Below are positions 3,518-63,432 of a DNA stretch of 64,000 bases, in pieces. Both the position numbers and the translations under genes were made by a program. Source of the DNA: Liolophura sinensis. Taxonomy: Eukaryota > Mollusca > Polyplacophora > Chitonida > Chitonidae. How positions within the stretch are numbered: position 1 is the stretch's first letter; each line of letters opens with the position of its first letter. The notes under the pieces are model-generated. The model searched no databases. It was not told the DNA's origin and was given only the letters and a program-made list of their open reading frames with translations. Where the stretch lies: NCBI RefSeq assembly GCF_032854445.1, contig NC_088295.1:79696028-79760027 (forward strand). Reading direction: 5' to 3'.

Positions 3518-3790
3518 GGGGGTCCTCCGTGGCGGAGCGGAGTTAGCACGCCAGCACGGCGCAATCACCCAGAAGCCTCCCACCAATGGGATCACTGTGA
3601 GTGCAAGTCCACCTCACGCTGGCTTCCTCTACGACCGTGCGTGAGAAGGTCTTGCAGCAACCTGCTGATGGTAGTTGGTTTCCCCCCGTCTCTGTCCGGT
3701 TTCCTCCCACCATAATGCTGGCTGCCTTCGTATTAGCGAAATATTTTTGAGTTCGACATAAAACACCATCCAAATAAATAAGATAAATAT
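3518..3790 (+). repeat. tRNA-derived SINE, near full length
   Basis: The head resembles a tRNA with pol III promoter boxes: GTGGCGGAGCGGAGTTAGCAC corresponds to the A box region (with a small insertion), and a degraded B box follows near 3600. A conserved central body runs through CTTGCAGCAACCTGCTGATGG, the motif TCCTCCCACCATAATGCTGGC, and the 3' body GAGTTCGACATAAAACACC, ending in an (AATA)n-like tail. The same element recurs about ten times on both strands in this window. Non-autonomous retrotransposon; open frames on either strand here are not genes. Confidence 0.85.
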
Positions 3791-11500: not shown

Positions 11501-12728
11501 ATACAACCCCTTAAGGCCAACTTACTATTCGCGGACATGAATCATATTGCCGTTACATTCGCCATATGTGTTCTAACAGATCTCCTGTTTTATGACATTG
11601 ACATTAACTAAAGTGATAATATGATACATTACAACTTCTGAGATGTGGTGTGGACGAAAGTCTAGCATAATTGCAGTCAAAGACTTCAAGAATACACAAT
11701 TATCTGTCAAAGGATCTTTCGCACTAAATTCATGTATTCATTCACTTACAACTGAGAAACAGATGGTTGTGCTTAGGTTCCTCGCAGCATGGGATACTCT
11801 AAATAATTAATATCGAATATTATAATTGAAATAATTTCCTGCCGGGAGTGTGAGCATCGGGGTTATGGGTTTGTGCTCGACACTTGGCAGGGTATGTGAG
11901 GGTCATCAAGCCCTGGGTGATGTAAGTGGACGATATGGAGGGAAGTTAACAGATCCCTTAGCCCTGTGTCTCTGCTAATTACCACTGGTTACAGATCTTT
12001 TGTACAAAGCAGATACATTAGTAAAAACTGGCCGAGAATCACACCTGCTCCATCTGGATGCTTCCCTGTTGAATTGCACCCATTCTATATTTCATCGTGT
12101 TTTTCTCTGTGGCGTTTATGGACGATAGCTCACTCACATGTAATGGGTCAAAACAGTTGACTTTGTCATTATGTCGCCATACAAACACTAATGGATTAGA
12201 TCAAAAAATTGCGATCATTTCTTGCAGATAGATGTGAGGTAATTTTACTTTGTATAATTCAGTAACAAAAAACATCATGGTTCATGTTATGCGAAAAGAA
12301 AATATAAACAATGACCAACCAAAAAGTGGCATTTAGACAGAATCAACAGTACTACATAAAGAGAAAAACGACAGCAAATATAATTATTTCCTTGTACACA
12401 ATTCCCATGTATAAGTTCATTCGAAACATTAACGCATACGCCTAAAGCGTAATAATGAACGAATTATCAAAACTGTTACGATACCGTGTATGATAGAAAA
12501 AGACAATATCTAAATGAACATTTGAATCACTCTAATTGTGTGTGCTCTAGAATACTCCCAAATTTAAATAAAATGGGATTTTAATGTATATATATATTTT
12601 TTTTTCGATGTCTATAGCATTATAATTGTTAATTTACAAATTGTCGTTAAGACATACGAAATAAACGTTTAGTGTATTCTCCTGAGGAGGAGGAATGGCA
12701 CGGTTGTAGATTGAATACTGACAACCGT

Positions 12729-13144
12729 GGATGTTCTCCATGTAATATCCACACAGGTCCATGTACCTGTTTTCTCTGATGGATGTTCTCCATGTAATAT
12801 CCACACAGGTCCTTGTACCCGTTTTCTCTGATGGATGTTCTCCATGTAATATCCACACAGGTCCTTGTACCTGTTTTCTCTGATGGATGTTCTCCATGTA
12901 ATATCCACAAAGGTCCTTGTACCCGTTTTCTCTGATGGATGTTCTCCATGTAATATCCACAAAGGTCCTTGTACCCGTTTTCTCTGATGGATGTTCTCCA
13001 TGTAATATCCACACAGGTCCTTGTACCTGTTTTCTCTGATGGATGTTCTCCATGTAATATCCACACAGGTCCTTGTACCCGTTTTCTCTGATGGATGTTC
13101 TCCATATAATATCCACAAAGGTAATTGTACCTGTTTTCTCTGTA
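12729..13144. repeat. 52-bp minisatellite, 8 units
   Basis: Eight head-to-tail units of exactly 52 bp, each starting GGATGTTCTCCATGTAATAT at 12729, 12781, 12833, 12885, 12937, 12989, 13041 and 13093. Units differ at a few positions (ACACAGG/ACAAAGG, ACCTG/ACCCG), so they are highly homogenised. Because 52 is one more than a multiple of 3 and the unit contains no minus-strand stop, all three minus-strand frames stay open across the array, giving overlapping frames of 150-190 codons that are artefacts of the repeat. Confidence 0.97.
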
Positions 13145-20159: not shown

Positions 20160-20717
20160 GGCCTCCAAAACTATTTATTTAGTCCCGCTAAAGTGAAGTG
20201 TCGGCTAATAGATAGTTTTCCTATCTACTATCTACAAAGAAAAACGCCAGTTGGCACAAAGAATTGGAAACGAGCTAATTAGATCACTGTTTATGTTTGT
20301 TGCAGGCCGAACTGAGCTGCTATAATGAAGTTTTCGACTGAGACTGCTGGTAAGTGACGCGCTAAATGACCCGTGTCAGGGCGGCGAGGGGCTGGTGTTG
20401 GCTGCTATTGGCGGAGAGCTCGCCTTGGCACAAACAGGCCTCGCCTTCAATCGGCCTATCTTCGGCTCCCTCCTCTCCGGTACGCGTAGCACCTATCATA
20501 TAGACATAGTCGAGCAGTAGCCCGTGCATGACGTGCTTTACTGTTAGCAAACCGGATATTTATGCAAACGACACGGAGAATTTTTAAAAAGCAACCACGA
20601 TGATTTAGCCGACGAATAAGGGTTGTCTTTGCGGAAGTTCTACATTCGTGTTTTTTTTCTCCATCCCTCAGTATCAACAACAGAGATTTCTGGTTTTCTG
20701 ATGTGAATGAAGCAACA
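20160..20717 (+). promoter_or_regulatory. Presumed promoter and 5' UTR of engrailed B
   Basis: Sequence immediately upstream of the engrailed B start codon. Visible elements: GCTAATTAG-type homeodomain sites near 20274, a TATAAT at 20321-20326, an inverted CCAAT box (ATTGG at 20407-20411), and a locally higher GC content between about 20370 and 20480. The start-codon frame stays open upstream to 20604 but has no ATG there. The true transcription start cannot be fixed from sequence, so the promoter call rests mainly on position. Confidence 0.35.
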
Positions 20718-21195
20718 ATGCTAGACGTCTTGGAACCGCACAGCAACAACAACAACAACAATGGGAGCGTGAACAGAGTCGCGGGACAAAGCGTGACCAA
20801 TTTTACAATAGATCAAATTCTTCGGCCAGAGTTTGGCAAACGGGTCACAGGACACAGCTCAAATACAGGCCTTTTTCGGCCAAATTTGGCCATTTTCCCC
20901 AGACTTGTTGATTACTTTTCAGGAACCATTCCTTACCCGTTGCATGTGAGACCTGCAGACAAACGTGTTGCTAAGAGGTGTAAAGTAGAACCCGTAGAAC
21001 TGACAAACACTGAGTATCAGTTTGGAGACACATCCAAGACTGCTTGTCAAGATACCGATTCTAAACCCATCCAAGGAAGCCCATCTACGCTAAAAACTTC
21101 ATCCAGGCTACCTGAGACAATACCTGGCGGCGTGAAAAAAGACGACTGGCCAGCGTGGGTATACTGTACTCGTTACTCCGACCGCCCCTCATCAG
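20718..21195 (+). CDS. en: Engrailed homeobox protein B, exon 1 (eh1 and EH2 motifs)
   Basis: First coding exon of a complete 271-residue Engrailed protein. The ATG at 20718 is the first in the open frame and has A at -3. The exon encodes 159 residues plus the first base of a Gly codon and ends at a consensus donor (ATCAG|GTGAGT). Residues 10-15 are an Asn run encoded by an AAC/AAT-rich tract. Residues 27-40 (TNFTIDQILRPEFG) are the eh1/EH1 motif, which recruits Groucho/TLE co-repressors in this family. Residues 144-160 (WPAWVYCTRYSDRPSSG) are EH2, whose tryptophans contact Exd/Pbx. The region between is Ser/Thr-rich and not recognised. Exon 2 lies 4 kb downstream and restores Gly160 exactly. 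At 271 residues it is at the short end for the family. Confidence 0.93.
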
Positions 21196-22249
21196 GTGAG
21201 TGATTAATATCAACCTTAATGCGGCTATACAGCACCTAAAACATTAAATTACAGAAAAGAAAAACTTCATCATATTTAGGTCCTTTAGATCAGAATAGTT
21301 AAATAATATAATGTATCACATTGGGGATATGTAGTTGACACTTATACGGTCTATATATATTCACAGATTAGCTGATTTCCCGTGTCACAGTTAGGTATAA
21401 TACACATGTCAAAACACATTGGGTCAATTTCGCGCATTACATATTAAGGCTTTGGTAATTAAAGTTTGGCCTGTATACAAAATCAATTGCGTGCATCAAG
21501 GTTATGTGCACCTTGCGGAAAAACAAAGTTCATCGTCTTCAAAGATGGCCATCTGTATTAATCACATATAATGGATTTTATTGCCAGCACATGTCCTTTG
21601 CCATGATAGTGAAATGAACATATAGCAGCTAAGTGACAAGCAGTTGTATAGATCACTCCAAATTATATGCAAACGTTACAGATAAACGTTTTTCTTGGTT
21701 GAAACTAAACAATTTTAATTGCGTTTTAATTATGAAAGCTGTGGCTGAATCCCAATCCATAAAGCTCCTTACTGTGTATTTTAATTACTAGAAAATGCCA
21801 AAACAAAGCCCATTGAGGGCTAATAATAAATAAAGAACCGTCTGTTTGTGTTGATATAATTCGTCTCCTCGGCTCATTATACACCAAACCATTTTTCATT
21901 AAAACTGGTGCAAAAAATGTTGCGGCGGAAAAGGAAGGTAGTGTATGGATAAAGATTTAACATAGACTGTTGAAACCACATGTAAAGTCGTTAAATTAAA
22001 ATCACAATGTTTGGATTGCTGTCATTTGCTTCCACGCTTGCGGTTGAATAGTCCATTAGATGAAAGAGGTCAAATTGAATGCGGGGTAAAAAGCTCTCCT
22101 TACTTCGTACAGACAGTTAAAATTGAATAAATTAGAAAGGCAGGAAATGTAAACCTTTCCTTACGTCGACATGTATGTATATTCTGCACCGCAAGCATGC
22201 AGTTCTCTTATTCTGTATATGCGTACATTAGTGAAAGAAAATTGAGGTA

Positions 22250-22890
22250 GAGTAATACGAACAGAAATTTATCAGCATGTGCGATACACTTTGAGAGACT
22301 GAGGTAGATGATTTAATGACACACAAGTTATCGACTTGTGTGGTGAACTTGAAAATACTGAGACAGAATATAAATGTCCACAAGAAGTTATCAACACATG
22401 CATGCCGTACTAGACTAAGATAGAGTAGGCCTACATAAATGTCCAGGGAAAGTTATAAAAACGCGTGGTACACATTAAAAGACTGACCCATGTAGAGTAA
22501 TGTCCAGATAATGCTATAAACCCGTGCGATACACTTGAAAAGACTGGCCCAGAGTAATGTCTAGATAGTGTTATCAACACATGATGTACGCTTGAAAAGA
22601 CTGGCCCAGAGTAGTGTCTAGATAGTGTTATCAACACATGATGTACGCTTGAAAAGACTGGCCCAGAGTAATGTCTAGATAGTGTTATCAACACATGATG
22701 TACGCTTGAAAAGACTGGCCCAGAGTAATGTCTAGATAGTGTTATCAACACATGATGTACGCTTGAAAAGACTGGCCCAGAGTAATGTCTAGATAGTGTT
22801 ATCAACACATGATGTACACCTGAAAGGACAGGCCCAGAGTAATGTCCAGATAGTGTTATCAACACATGATGTACACTTGAAAAGACTGAG
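22250..22890. repeat. 57-bp minisatellite with degraded left flank
   Basis: Five to six near-identical 57-bp units: CTGGCCCAGAGTA recurs at 22544, 22601, 22658, 22715 and 22772, and a variant with an altered core (CAGGCCCAGAG) at 22829. Left of 22540 the units become progressively divergent and irregular in length, and can be followed as degraded GTTATCAACACATG-type motifs to about 22250. Because 57 is 19 codons, the minus strand stays open with a 19-residue repeating peptide (LITLSRHYSGPVFSSVHHV); this is explained by the repeat and I do not call a gene. Confidence 0.93.
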
Positions 22891-23132
22891 TTTAATTATT
22901 AGTACAATTAATTTTTAATTGTATAAAAGCTCGTATAATTATTAATTGCTAAAGATATAAATTTTGATTTGCGCAGTTGAAGTTGTACGCAAATTAGTCG
23001 CGATCAGAGGTGTTGCTCCGTGGTTCTGATTCATACTTGTGTTAAAAATGCAGAATGTAAAAATAATCTGAATTCAGTTATTGAAAATGTGAGACATGAT
23101 ATGCCTCTGTAAAATGCAGTCTTGCAAATATT

Positions 23133-23154
23133 TGCATATATATATATATATATA
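23133..23154. repeat. (TA)n microsatellite
   Basis: Short run of alternating T and A inside the engrailed B intron, just after TTTGCATATA. Simple repeat, likely length-variable. Confidence 0.8.
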
Positions 23155-25204
23155 TGACCATGTGACAGGCAAGGACATTTTATTCAATTTCACCAGACCC
23201 ACAAAAAGATTATATTTGTTCATTTTTCAGCGGTTTCAAAAATTCATATTCACTTTTCTGTTTCACATGATTTTACATTATTTTTCCCTGGTGATGTTTA
23301 TTTGAGTTGGAACCCCAGAGCGCATATATCATTTCCCATTCCGAGTTTTGTTGTTGTTGTTCGGTCTTTTGTTTCATGAACTTAATGTTATTTAGTACTG
23401 ATTCTCACAATTCGTGGCTGTATAATTTATGTATGCATGTCTCCCTGCTCTCACACTATTACACAATAATTACCACAGGATTATAAAACCTGTCTGAAAT
23501 TATGGAAATGTTCACTAAAATTGTGATGCACCATACACATATATCTTATGTTATTGTACTATGTATTTGTGACAGGGTGTTAATAATGTTAATTAACGTG
23601 GAATCACTGGTCTTTACTTTTTTTCTTGGTTTTTTATTTATTTATTTTTTTTTTGGCAATACGCCTCCATCACGGTACATGCAATATATACCCTTTACAC
23701 TTTGCATTCCAGTAGAGAATGATAAAAAAAGCTTGTGTCACTTGGACCGTTTTGTCTTAATCAACTTCCTCCCCAATTTGTGACCGTTCACTGTGTCATG
23801 AACTCATTAACAATTACAACGACTATTACACCATGGGACAGCTGAGTCAAAATGCCAAATTTCAAGACTGCCACTTGGACGAACCTAATATAAATATCAG
23901 TGAGCGTTTTGTAATTGGCCGCTGATGTAAGTATATTGCCCCAAGGTATGACATTTGCAATCAGGATATATACGTATAGAACTCAAACTTGTGGTCAGCG
24001 TTTCCCTTAGCTCCACTAATATATTGTGTTATGCTCGCAGACAATTACGTGTCAGTTGTGTTATTTTCCTTCACGGGACGTAACTCAGACACTGAATTGT
24101 CACTGACAGTGTATGATTACGATCATTACTTTGACGGCAAGGAAAAAAACATATGGGTACAATATTCAAAGCGTCATTTAAGTCACGTAATACCATTTCA
24201 GGTGCAGGGTTTAGAAACGCACCAAAAATTTCGTAAGAAATGCCAAAAGCTAAGATTCTTGTGACAAGATCGTTTAAATCCACGTCTTGTGAACTTGTCA
24301 TATATCCCATAGAGTCCAAACATATGACGTGCACCAAGACGGTGTATTTAGATATAATAAATGGTACACATGCAGGAAAACCATCCAACCAGACATTACT
24401 GACAGCTTGATAAACACATTTAAATTGCCACAGAGTCTCTACAGTATTTCATCCAAGTGTTATACCAATTAATAGACGAGCATACAGTGTACGAATCATG
24501 GTACAGCGCTACACGTCACGCCCCACTGCATTTGTATGATCAGCGGGGGAATTAGTAGCTGTTCTCTATCAAATTTCGTGTCGCGCGGATGTGTGATTCG
24601 TAATTAGTTTGAAGAATGACTGCACATGATCCGTCTAACTATTCCCCCATGTCAAGTGATCATACATAAATCTACCATTTGTATATTCACCTGAACAGTT
24701 TAAACTCTGGAATTAATGGCTACCTTTCACCCCGGTCGTATGAGCCGTCAATTTTCTCCCACAATGCCCCTGGCTTGTTCTCAGTATCGTCTATTGATAA
24801 TTACGAGACCGTTAAGAGATTTCCCAAAAGTCCGCCGCTGTGCTGGCGTCGAGGATTTTACTCTGTTTACAGTTCTCCTCACCCGAGCTTTGGTGGCTTT
24901 TCTATTAAATCTGTCTGTATGCTTGACACTCTGACAGGTAGCAGGTTCCTTTACAAATCGGATACTAATCAAAACATTACAGGAGATGAATAACTTGAAT
25001 AGGTTCTCCTCGTGGCGATTTGTAGACGATGACATCCCACGTATACAAAACGCATTCACCCTTGTATGATTTGTAAAACGTTCATCATTTTCGGCTTTGA
25101 TTAAAAATGTCATGACTTGAAAATCAGTTCGAAGGTAATATATTGAGTAAATTCTATTTGGTGTTTTAACACATAAAACATGATACATTTTTTTCTTTTC
25201 ACAG

Positions 25205-25542
25205 GCCCGCGATCAAGAAAGCACAAACGAAAATCCAAACTTGCTGACGAAAAACGGCCAAGGACTGCGTTCACCAGCGAGCAGCTCCAAGTGCTTAAAA
25301 GAGAGTTTGGAGAATGTCAGTATCTAACAGAAGCCCGGCGACAAAGTCTGTCCAGTGAATTGAAACTGAACGAGTCTCAAATCAAAATCTGGTTCCAAAA
25401 CAAACGTGCCAAACTTAAGAAAAGTTCCGCTGAAAGAGGATCCTTGGCCAAACATCTTTTGGCTGAAGGACTTTACAATCATTCCACAAACAGTTCAGGA
25501 CAAACTCAAGATTCTACCGACACCAAATCATTTGTTGGGTGA
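25205..25542 (+). CDS. en: Engrailed homeobox protein B, exon 2 (EH3, homeodomain, EH5)
   Basis: Second and last coding exon, entered in phase 1 (GC completes Gly160) behind CTTTTCACAG, ending with TGA at 25540-25542. Residues 161-174 form a basic EH3 ([14 protein letters not shown]). The homeodomain spans residues 175-234 (25249-25428) with Arg5, Phe8, Trp48, Gln50, Asn51 and Arg53; the helix-3 stretch [14 protein letters not shown] is intact, so DNA binding of the TAATTA type is expected. EH5 ([15 protein letters not shown]) is recognisable but departs from the [11 protein letters not shown] consensus more than the upstream paralogue does. The tail is Ser/Thr/Gln-rich and ends FVG. The first canonical AATAAA downstream lies near 25986 in a SINE remnant. 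This is a tandem paralogue of the gene at 1295-1620. Confidence 0.95.
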
Positions 25543-31346: not shown

Positions 31347-31608
31347 GGGGGTCTCCGTGGCTCAGTCGGTTAGCGCGCTAGCGCAGCATAATGACCCAGG
31401 AGCCTCTCACCAATGCGGTCGCTAAGAGTTCAAGTCCAGCTCATGCTGGCTTCCTCTCCGGCCGCACGTGGGAAGGTCTGTCAGCAACCTTCGGATGGTC
31501 GTGGGTTTCCCCCGGGCTCTGCCCGGTTTCCCCCCACCATAAGTCGTATAAGTGAAATATTCTTGAGTACGGCGTAAAACACCAATCAAATAAATAAAAT
31601 AAATACTT
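31347..31608 (+). repeat. tRNA-derived SINE, full length
   Basis: The best-preserved copy. Head: GGGTCTCCGTGGCTCAGTCG followed by GTTAGCGCGCTAGC (A box region), and AGTTCAAGTCC as B box near 31429. Centre: GGAAGGTCTGTCAGCAACCT, GGGTTTCCCCCGGGCTCTGC. Tail: TATAAGTGAAATATTCTTGA, GTACGGCGTAAAACACCAAT, then a CAAATAAATAAAATAAAT tail. tRNA-derived head plus conserved body is the SINE2 architecture. Open frames on the minus strand here are not genes. Confidence 0.93.
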
Positions 31609-52619: not shown

Positions 52620-53420
52620 TTACGTTTACATATGAAGCGTTACGTCTTTGGTGACATTTCCACAATTGGCTATCGTGGTGGTTTCATGCAGGTATACATT
52701 TATTTTTATTGATGTTTTAAGTCGTACTCAAGAATACTTCATGTGACCAGCATTATGGTGGGAAGAAACCCACGACCATCCGCAAGCTGCTGTCAGACAT
52801 TCCCACGTATGGCCGCAGAGGAAGGCAGCACGAGATGGACTTGAACTCACAGCGACCGCATTGATGAGGAGGCCCCTGGGTCATTGCGTCGCACTGGCGT
52901 GCTAAACAGTCACGGAGGCCCCTATGTGCACGTAGGCTAGAGCGTTAAATCTGTAGCGGCATTCCCACCACTGGCCTTCCATGGTAGTTACGTTTACACG
53001 TTCAGCGTTACGCCCATGGCAACATTTGCACAACTGGCCATGATGGTGGTCATGTGCACGCAGGTTAGAGCGTTGCTTCTGTAGCGGTATTTGCACCAAT
53101 GACTGCCTTGATAGTTACGTTTGTACGTATTACTCCATGGAAACTATTTTCACTATGATAGTTTATGATAGTGTCGGCATTCCCACCTCTATCTGCCATG
53201 GTAGGTACGCTTGCACGTATAGCGTTACGTCTATGGCAACATATGCACAACTGCTATCATGGTTGTTGCGTGCTCGTAACGTTTCGTCCTTAGTGACAAT
53301 TATATTCCATGTAGTTACATGATCGTAGCGTTACCTGTATGGTGACATGCGCACCACTGCATGGCGTAGTTACCTACCATTATAACGTTAGGCTAACATA
53401 TACACCACTATCTGGCGATG
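52620..53420. repeat. Degenerate about 63-bp tandem repeat array, interrupted by a SINE
   Basis: The words GTTACGT(T/C)TA, AGCGTTACG, ATGGCAACAT(T/A)TGCACAACTG and CCATG(G)TAG recur every 60-65 bp, for example around 52620, 52925, 52985, 53045, 53112, 53205, 53265 and 53315. Units are strongly diverged, so the array is old. It is split at 52708-52923 by a near full-length SINE on the minus strand. Confidence 0.75.
52708..52923 (-). repeat. tRNA-derived SINE inserted in the 63-bp array
   Basis: Reverse-complement copy from GTCGTACTCAAGAATACTTC (tail) through CCAGCATTATGGTGGGAAGA and CCCACGACCATCCGCAAGC to ACTTGAACTCACAGCGACCG (B box) and GGCGTGCTAAACAGTCACGG (A box side). Some 3' body bases are deleted. 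Flanked on both sides by the same degenerate tandem repeat. Confidence 0.9.
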
Positions 53421-59179: not shown

Positions 59180-59400
59180 TGACCGATGGATTAGCACGCC
59201 AGCACGTCGCAATGGCCCAGGAGCCTCCCGCCAATGCGGTCGCTGGGAGTTCAAGTCCAGCTCAAGCTGACTTCCTCTCCGACGTTGGAAGATCTGCTAG
59301 CAGCCTGCGGATGGTCATGAGATTCCCCAGGGCTATGCCAGCTTTCCTCTCACCATAACACTGGCGGCCGTCGAATAAGTGAAATATTTTTGAGTATATA
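59180..59400 (+). repeat. tRNA-derived SINE
   Basis: TGGATTAGCACGCCAGCACG, AGTTCAAGTCCAGCTCAAGC (B box), GCAGCCTGCGGATGGTCATG, CTCACCATAACACTGGCGGC, GTGAAATATTTTTGAGTATA. The distal tail (GTACGGCGTAAAACACC) has been replaced by a short TATA-rich repeat. Confidence 0.9.
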
Positions 59401-61653: not shown

Positions 61654-63382
61654 CTGAGATGAAAAACAGAATAACACATTATATCCTCGTTAAACGGATT
61701 TATTTATTTATTGGATTGGTGTTTTACGCCTTACTCAAGAAGATTTCACTTATACGACGGCGGCCAGCATTATGGTGGGAGGAAACACACGACCATCCGC
61801 AAGTTTTTGACAGACCTTCTCACGTAGGGCCGTGAAAAGTCAGCATGAGATGAACTTGAACTCACAGCGACCACACTGGTGGGAGGCTCCTGGGTTATTA
61901 TGCCGTGCTGGCATGCTACCCCCCTCGGCCTCGGTGTCGATGTCGGCTCGGTGTCCGTTGACTTTGCTTGGGTGCACGATCCATTATTAACGGTGTATAT
62001 ATTGTCTTACATATTACTGCATCAGTGAGGCATGCTTCGGTCTGCTATACATTATATTGCTATAAACGGACACCGTCTTAACATGGCCGAAATAGCGATA
62101 AAAATGACGTTAACCCCCTCCCACTCTCCAGAACAAACACAAAGAAACACTCCACCACAGTTGCCACACTGACGTCACTTATTTGGTATAGGACGTCTTC
62201 GCAAAATGTGTTTGTGTGTGTGTGTACTATAGGAACTAATTATTAACAAAAATGGGTTCATACATTCGCCAGAATCATAAGTATACTTCTTATAATTACT
62301 TGCAATGTAAATAAAGAACAACCATTGCTAGAAGACAGAAGTCACTAAAGTAACCGATAATTCATGACAGCACAACAGTCACTTATCCTCATGGTGTGAT
62401 ACAGAAAACGATGACCCTCGTCTCACAGGTGTAACACATAATACAAGACAGAACAAAATAGTCACTATATTCACGGCGTGATAGAGGAAACGATGACCCT
62501 GGCCTCACAGATCTGATAGATGATACAAGAAGATAGAACATAGTCACTATACTCACGGGGTGAGACAGAAAACGATGACCCTGGTCTCACCGATGTGACA
62601 GATAATACAAGACAGAACAACATTGTCACTATATTCACAAAGTGAGACAGAAAAAGATGATCCTGGCCTCACAGACGCGACAGATAATACAAGACAGAAC
62701 AACATTGTCACCATACTCACGGGATGATACAGAAAACGATGGTCCTGGTCTCACAGACGTGACAGATAATACAAGACAGAACAACATTTTCACTATACCC
62801 ACGGGTGATACATAAAACGATGATCCTGGCCCCACAGACGCGACAGATAATACAAGCCAGAACAACACTGTCACTCTTCTCACGGGGTAATACAGAAAAC
62901 GATGACCCTGGTCTCACCGATGTGACAGATAATACAAGACAGAACAACACAGTCACCATACTCACGGGGTGATAAGGAAAACGATGATCCTGTTCTCACA
63001 GACATGATAGATGATACAAGAAGATAGAACAACATCGTCACTATACTCATGGGGTGATACAGAAAACGATGATCCTGGCCTCAGAGATGTGACAGATAAT
63101 ACAAGACAGAACAACACTGTCACTATACTCATGGGGTGATGCAGGAAACGATGACCCTGGTCTCAGATGTGATAGCTGATACAAGAAGATAGAACAACAT
63201 CGTCACTATACTCATGGGGTGATACAGAAAACGATGATCCTGGCCTCACAGATGTGACAGATAATACAAGACAGAACAACACTGTCACTATACTCATGGG
63301 GTGATGTAGGAAACGATGACCCTGGCCTCACAGATGTGATAGCTGATACAAGAAGATAGAACAACATTGTCACTATACTCAC
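61654..63382 (-). other. Intron of the CENP-B-type gene
   Basis: Donor CCCC|GTGAGTATAG at 63382 and acceptor TTTCATCTCAG ending at 61654, both phase 1, so the joined codon is C+TC (Leu) and the frame is kept. The intron contains a minus-strand SINE (61699-61945), about 400 bp of AT-rich DNA, and a tandem array that runs from about 62370 to and across the donor. The phase agreement between the two independently chosen sites is good support for this intron. Confidence 0.7.
61699..61945 (-). repeat. tRNA-derived SINE in the intron
   Basis: Reverse-complement full-length copy: TTATTTATTTATTGGATTGG tail, TGTTTTACGCCTTACTCAAG, CCAGCATTATGGTGGGAGGA, CACGACCATCCGCAAG, TGAACTTGAACTCACAGCGA (B box), ATGCCGTGCTGGCATGCTA (A box side). 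Same orientation as the host gene. Confidence 0.93.
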
Positions 63383-63432
63383 GGGGTGATACAGAAAACG
63401 ATGATCCTGGCCTCACAGATGTAACAGACACA
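62370..63432. repeat. 82-86-bp minisatellite, about 13 units, overlapping an exon-intron junction
   Basis: Repeated unit on the + strand: CACTATACTCACGGGGTGAT, ACAGAAAACGATGATCCTGG, CCTCACAGATGTGACAGATA, ATACAAGACAGAACAACATT. Copies are centred at about 62395, 62475, 62556, 62637, 62719, 62800, 62882, 62964, 63049, 63131, 63213, 63296 and 63381. A longer variant with AGAAGATAGAAC alternates with the shorter one toward the right end, giving 82- and 86-bp spacings. The rightmost unit overlaps the last 16 or so codons and the GTGAGT donor of the minus-strand coding exon. Stop-free runs on the minus strand (62635-62965) are repeat read-through. Confidence 0.95.

Follow-up and report, generated by a model that had tools for sequence, protein, structure and literature searches.

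The window analyzed here, a stretch of 64,000 nucleotides from Liolophura sinensis, ends within a gene predicted on the minus strand, in which a minisatellite extends from the end of a coding exon into the following intron (Table 1). Elsewhere, the window contains two tandem engrailed-type homeobox genes on the plus strand (1246-1617 and 20604-25539), with Pfam matches to Homeodomain and Engrail_1_C_sig in both homeodomain exons. The open reading frame (ORF) ending at 21200 contains a WPAWVYCTRYSDRPSSG motif, which we take to be engrailed EH2. Two further minisatellites were detected by Tandem Repeats Finder (TRF), one at 12728-13142 (52 bp x 8, 96%) and one at 22494-22888 (57 bp x 6.9, 94%), the latter located between the presumed two coding parts of the second engrailed gene and not at a junction. 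In addition, a dispersed family of SINE-like elements, whose AATA tail is A/T-rich, gave 15 blastn matches in the window (E up to 1e-3, query included); besides the copy listed in Table 1, it is represented at 52698-52904, 59192-59396, 31355-31604, 3527-3788, and other positions. SINE-like elements of this kind and the engrailed sequences would point to a lophotrochozoan and away from a lancelet.

Table 1. Features of the minus-strand gene and its array (a slash marks the exon end)
Feature	Position	Strand	Evidence
Predicted coding exon; continues past window end, stops one base into a codon	63383..63998	-	Open frame 63998-63297; in-frame join to last exon
Copy 1 donor C/GTGAGT, predicted working 5' splice site	63377..63382	-	Alignment, frame
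Last coding exon: 2 bases finishing the split codon, 168 codons, TAA	61145..61653	-	Frame
Minisatellite: 13 units of ~82 bp and a partial 14th	62342..63428	-	TRF, MAFFT, local alignment
Copy 1: final 46 bases of the exon, donor, start of the intron	63352..63428	-	Alignment
Copies 2-5, donor column ATGAGT	63020..63351	-	Pairwise identity, block alignment
In-frame TGA for transcripts passing the copy 1 donor, in copy 2	63294..63296	-	Frame
Copy 6 donor-like C/GTGAGT	62960..62965	-	Alignment
Copy 9 donor-like C/GTGAGT	62715..62720	-	Alignment
Copy 11 donor-like C/GTGAGT	62551..62556	-	Alignment
Dispersed SINE-like element, same intron as array	61690..61990	-	blastn

Exon end and last exon

At 234 codons, of which 205 precede the donor, and truncated by the edge of the window, the frame of the upstream exon is the window's longest stop-to-stop ORF; in 40 mononucleotide shuffles, the longest ORF reached at most 163 codons and averaged 138. 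When 63382 was joined to the acceptor before 61653, which was chosen by eye and is itself a candidate, the frame remained open for 168 further codons. The last exon is open only in the phase whose first codon begins with one base of the upstream exon; the other two phases meet a stop after 13 and 25 codons. Donors were scored with a vertebrate-like matrix, so that scores are relative only. On this scale C/GTGAGT at 63382 scored 1.96, which was reached or exceeded by 3.2% of the 4,100 GT sites on the strand. Three candidate donors within the exon scored >1 (63880, 63458, and 63382). The first-pass annotation had named the GAG/GTAGAT site (63458) as an example of an exon end that would speak against its reading; this site is disfavored by frame and was rejected, as its join to the last exon is out of frame and meets a stop 25 codons past the junction. 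Donor 63880 (score, 1.93) joins the last exon in frame, as does 63382, but its use would remove 166 codons from the open frame, and it is unlikely to be the actual exon end. As part of the explanation favored below, the normal mRNA probably joins 63383 to 61653.

No Pfam match was found for the upstream exon up to E 1. The last-exon frame gave a sub-threshold Pfam match to HTH_Tnp_Tc5 (E 0.00083; 19.7 bits versus a cut-off of 22.2) and no PDB match up to E 1. Its predicted product is a basic, helix-turn-helix-like protein end followed by a stop, without a transposase catalytic part in frame. Judged from sequence, the last exon is possibly the domesticated N-terminal part of a transposase.

A minisatellite in register with the splice junction

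TRF reported the minus-strand array at 62356-63428 with a period of 82 and 13.0 copies (82% matches; score, 1354). When the unit consensus was aligned locally, homology began at 63428, inside the exon, and faded at ~62342. Copy 1 contains the last 15 exon codons and the GTGAGT donor at 63382. Alignment of the 13 units with MAFFT brought the junction column into register, with identities of 73 to 99% among units; copy 13, at the far edge, formed the lowest row (73 to 80% to the other copies). The first-pass annotation had proposed a unit spanning the exon end and its donor, repeated about 12 more times into the intron. The TRF array, the aligned junction column, and the frame fit bear this out, with 13 copies in total and its copy coordinates correct within 2 bases. 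A dispersed repeat was rejected as the nature of the unit, since a search of the rest of the 64-kb window yielded no further unit (best E, 2.6).

At the junction column, GTGAGT is present in copies 1, 6, 9, and 11, GTGAGA in copy 7, GTGGGT in copy 8, and GTGAAT in copies 10 and 12, while the GT is lost in copies 2 to 5 (ATGAGT) and in copy 13 (ATGAGG). Junction positions were located at 63382, 63297, 63215, 63132, 63050, 62965, 62883, 62720, and 62556. The first reading of the sequence had correctly placed GTGAGT near 62556, 62719, and 62964, GTGAGA near 62882, and ATGAGT in the four copies closest to the exon. It lacked the fifth AT copy, copy 13, the duplication of two units and the effects on the frame described below, as well as a TCG/GTGAGA within the exonic portion of copies 7 and 11, which scored 3.06 versus 1.96 for the copy 1 donor. 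The donor-like sites of copies 6, 9, and 11 score the same as the latter. Copies 2 and 4 begin (~63343 and ~63176, minus strand) with an acceptor-like TCTTCTTGTATCAG, ~40 bases past a donor column. A repeat unit could thus in principle act as a mini-exon, although the donors of copies 2 and 4, where the acceptor-like sequence is present, are both lost.

Origin of the array and state of its donors

The consensus of copies 2 to 13 encodes SVTSVRPGSSFSVSP, identical to the exon tail, as would be expected if these copies had been copied from the exon; copy 1 differs from it by two synonymous differences over 15 codons. Parsimony yielded 40 changes among the copies, distributed 14/10/16 over the codon positions. 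Of these, 17 were synonymous and 23 nonsynonymous, against an expected synonymous share of ~31 to 32% (P 0.09 to 0.11). Changes per column amounted to 0.89 in the exonic part versus 1.13 in the intronic part, and gaps of two bases in copy 4 and one base in copy 8 break any frame. Direct comparison of copies 2 to 13 with copy 1 gave 34 synonymous and 31 other differences, with 11 of the 34 representing one shared difference. The intronic copies hence look free of clear codon constraint, and the synonymous share slightly above expectation is a weak hint against pure drift. That the interior copies are former coding repeats was rejected, since a period of 82 is not divisible by 3 and the changes are distributed fairly evenly among codon positions. 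The intronic copies resemble the exon tail most likely because they descend from it.

We consider it probable, with good confidence, that the array is a mirage-type minisatellite (a class described in lancelets; see below) that was copied from the splice junction and whose first donor is in use. A stretch of ~82 bp, from the end of the exon through the donor into the start of the intron, would have been duplicated in tandem, and unequal exchange would then have expanded the array into the intron, recently by the duplication of two units at once. The copy next to the exon would have remained the working 5' splice site, presumably the only one used, and its exonic part would have stayed under coding constraint. 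The remaining copies would have been left in the intron to drift, losing their donors one by one, partly via C-to-T changes at the donor CpG. The reverse order, in which a pre-existing intronic minisatellite spread across the edge of the exon and the copy at its end was taken over as coding sequence with a donor, would leave the same array. Furthermore, in a FastTree unit tree with copy 1 as root and many low supports (0.116 to 0.903), copy 1 clusters with copies 3 and 5 (support, 0.756) and so is not necessarily the oldest. However, the consensus of the noncoding copies encodes the exon tail and is stop-free in that frame, and free copies are absent from the rest of the window; an origin of the exon end from the repeat is therefore unlikely.

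The first-pass annotation had regarded the array as a ladder of potential alternative donors, and the three distal GTGAGT copies equal to the working donor in score would fit regulated use, in which expression is tuned through transcripts from distal donors that are long, truncated, or NMD-targeted. Yet all candidates scoring >1 beyond 63382 (11 of 11, from 62965 on) read into the TGA at 63296, adding 29 residues to the product and losing the last exon's 168 codons, so that such a ladder would yield only truncated messages and its usefulness is not borne out. For donor 62965, the stop lies ~330 bases before the junction, and by the usual 50-base rule a stop that far before a junction invites NMD; messages from distal donors would probably be NMD-prone. 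The closest donors, moreover, are lost. Published cases point both ways: two downstream units of the minisatellite in human IFI6 (6-16, G1P3) are said, citing Turri et al., to be employed as donors (PMC4526556), while the lancelet mirages are reported without disturbance of splicing, with regular products in Adh3 and globin RT-PCR; alleles differing in length are reported there as well (PMC3087553, PMC3902484). Regulated use of the distal donors thus appears improbable.

Copies 2 and 4 share 98% identity and copies 3 and 5 share 99%, and alignment of block 2+3 with block 4+5 revealed few differences; copies 4 and 5 are therefore a recent duplicate of copies 2 and 3, a two-unit block of ~165 bp. 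The single shared G-to-A change proposed in the first-pass annotation is not supported, as parsimony on the one tree places three events (in the ancestor of copies 2 and 4, in that of copies 3 and 5, and in copy 13). The consensus at the donor is C/G, a CpG, and loss corresponds to C-to-T there. Most simply, the four silenced neighbors go back to two events, later copied once, at a mutable dinucleotide; conversion between neighboring copies 2 and 3 could make their change one event, and with one event or two the four are not good evidence of selection. Compared with the window, the array is poorer in CpG (0.60 versus 0.83) and richer in TpG+CpA (1.45 versus 1.21). Within the unit, 52 CpG cells show 6 transitions and 1 transversion and 401 other G/C cells show 26 and 15, counts that include changes shared by descent; an excess of CpG decay is suggestive at most. 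That selection silenced the closest donors to protect the working one, as the ATGAGT in all four might suggest, is very doubtful: copies 4 and 5 duplicate copies 2 and 3, the far-end copy 13 also carries A, A is present in 3 of 10 intronic copies once duplicates are collapsed (with a chance of ~0.07 that both closest copies have it), and the donor site is a CpG.

Relation to known boundary-spanning minisatellites

The minisatellite of human IFI6 has a short unit of 12 bases. It was reportedly described with multiple donors by Turri et al. in 1995. The present array resembles it in providing repeated 5' splice sites, but whereas downstream units are stated to serve as donors in IFI6, distal donors here would meet a stop. 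Closer parallels are the lancelet mirages (Adh3, the globins BflGb6 and BflGb9, troponin C, and PGBD5), described as minisatellite-like tandem duplications over exon-intron boundaries, with units of 10 to 160 bp (81 to 100% identical in BflGb6), splice signals retained in many but not all copies, and both 5' and 3' boundaries possible (PMC3087553, PMC3902484). The remark in the first-pass annotation that it knew of no case quite like this thus fails as a claim of novelty, as these mirages and the multidonor minisatellite of IFI6 are already in print. One of the PGBD5 arrays abuts a 5' splice site, the exon structure of that gene being largely predicted (PMC3902484). The present array shares the tandem, minisatellite-sized units (82 bp x 13), the exon-intron boundary inside the unit (in copy 1, where it is supported by frame), and splice signals in part of the copies (GT in 8 of 13, full GTGAGT in 4 of 13), and it is known from one sequence. 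The length instability between alleles seen in mirages would find indirect support in the recent duplication of two units. In lancelets, outer units are reported to be excluded from homogenization (PMC3087553); here, the far-edge copy 13 is the least identical. Internal tandem repeats at exon-intron boundaries, able to alter splice sites or intron extent, are likewise reported from human duplicated genes, where they change exon/intron structure between paralogues (PMC2812944), whereas here the junction appears to be kept, as judged by frame. In the passages considered, a report on an earthworm metallothionein gene with intronic repeats shows no boundary repeat (PMC12783039). In the literature searched, no mirage was found under that name outside lancelets, which does not prove their absence. 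A further-reaching reading would have mirages occur beyond lancelets, the present array being a donor-side mirage of another animal group in the gene of a putative transposase-derived DNA-binding protein, and its length setting what share of transcripts stop in copy 2 and do not reach the last exon; as a whole, this is improbable.

Overall, the array looks like an ordinary, decaying example of the known boundary-spanning minisatellites and leaves existing knowledge unchanged. Such minisatellites, from which new introns have been proposed to arise (PMC3087553), offer natural experiments on spliceosomal choice of one donor among near-identical ones. The 13-copy array, whose donors have decayed to many different degrees and whose frame separates the right choice from a wrong one, is well suited to testing this.
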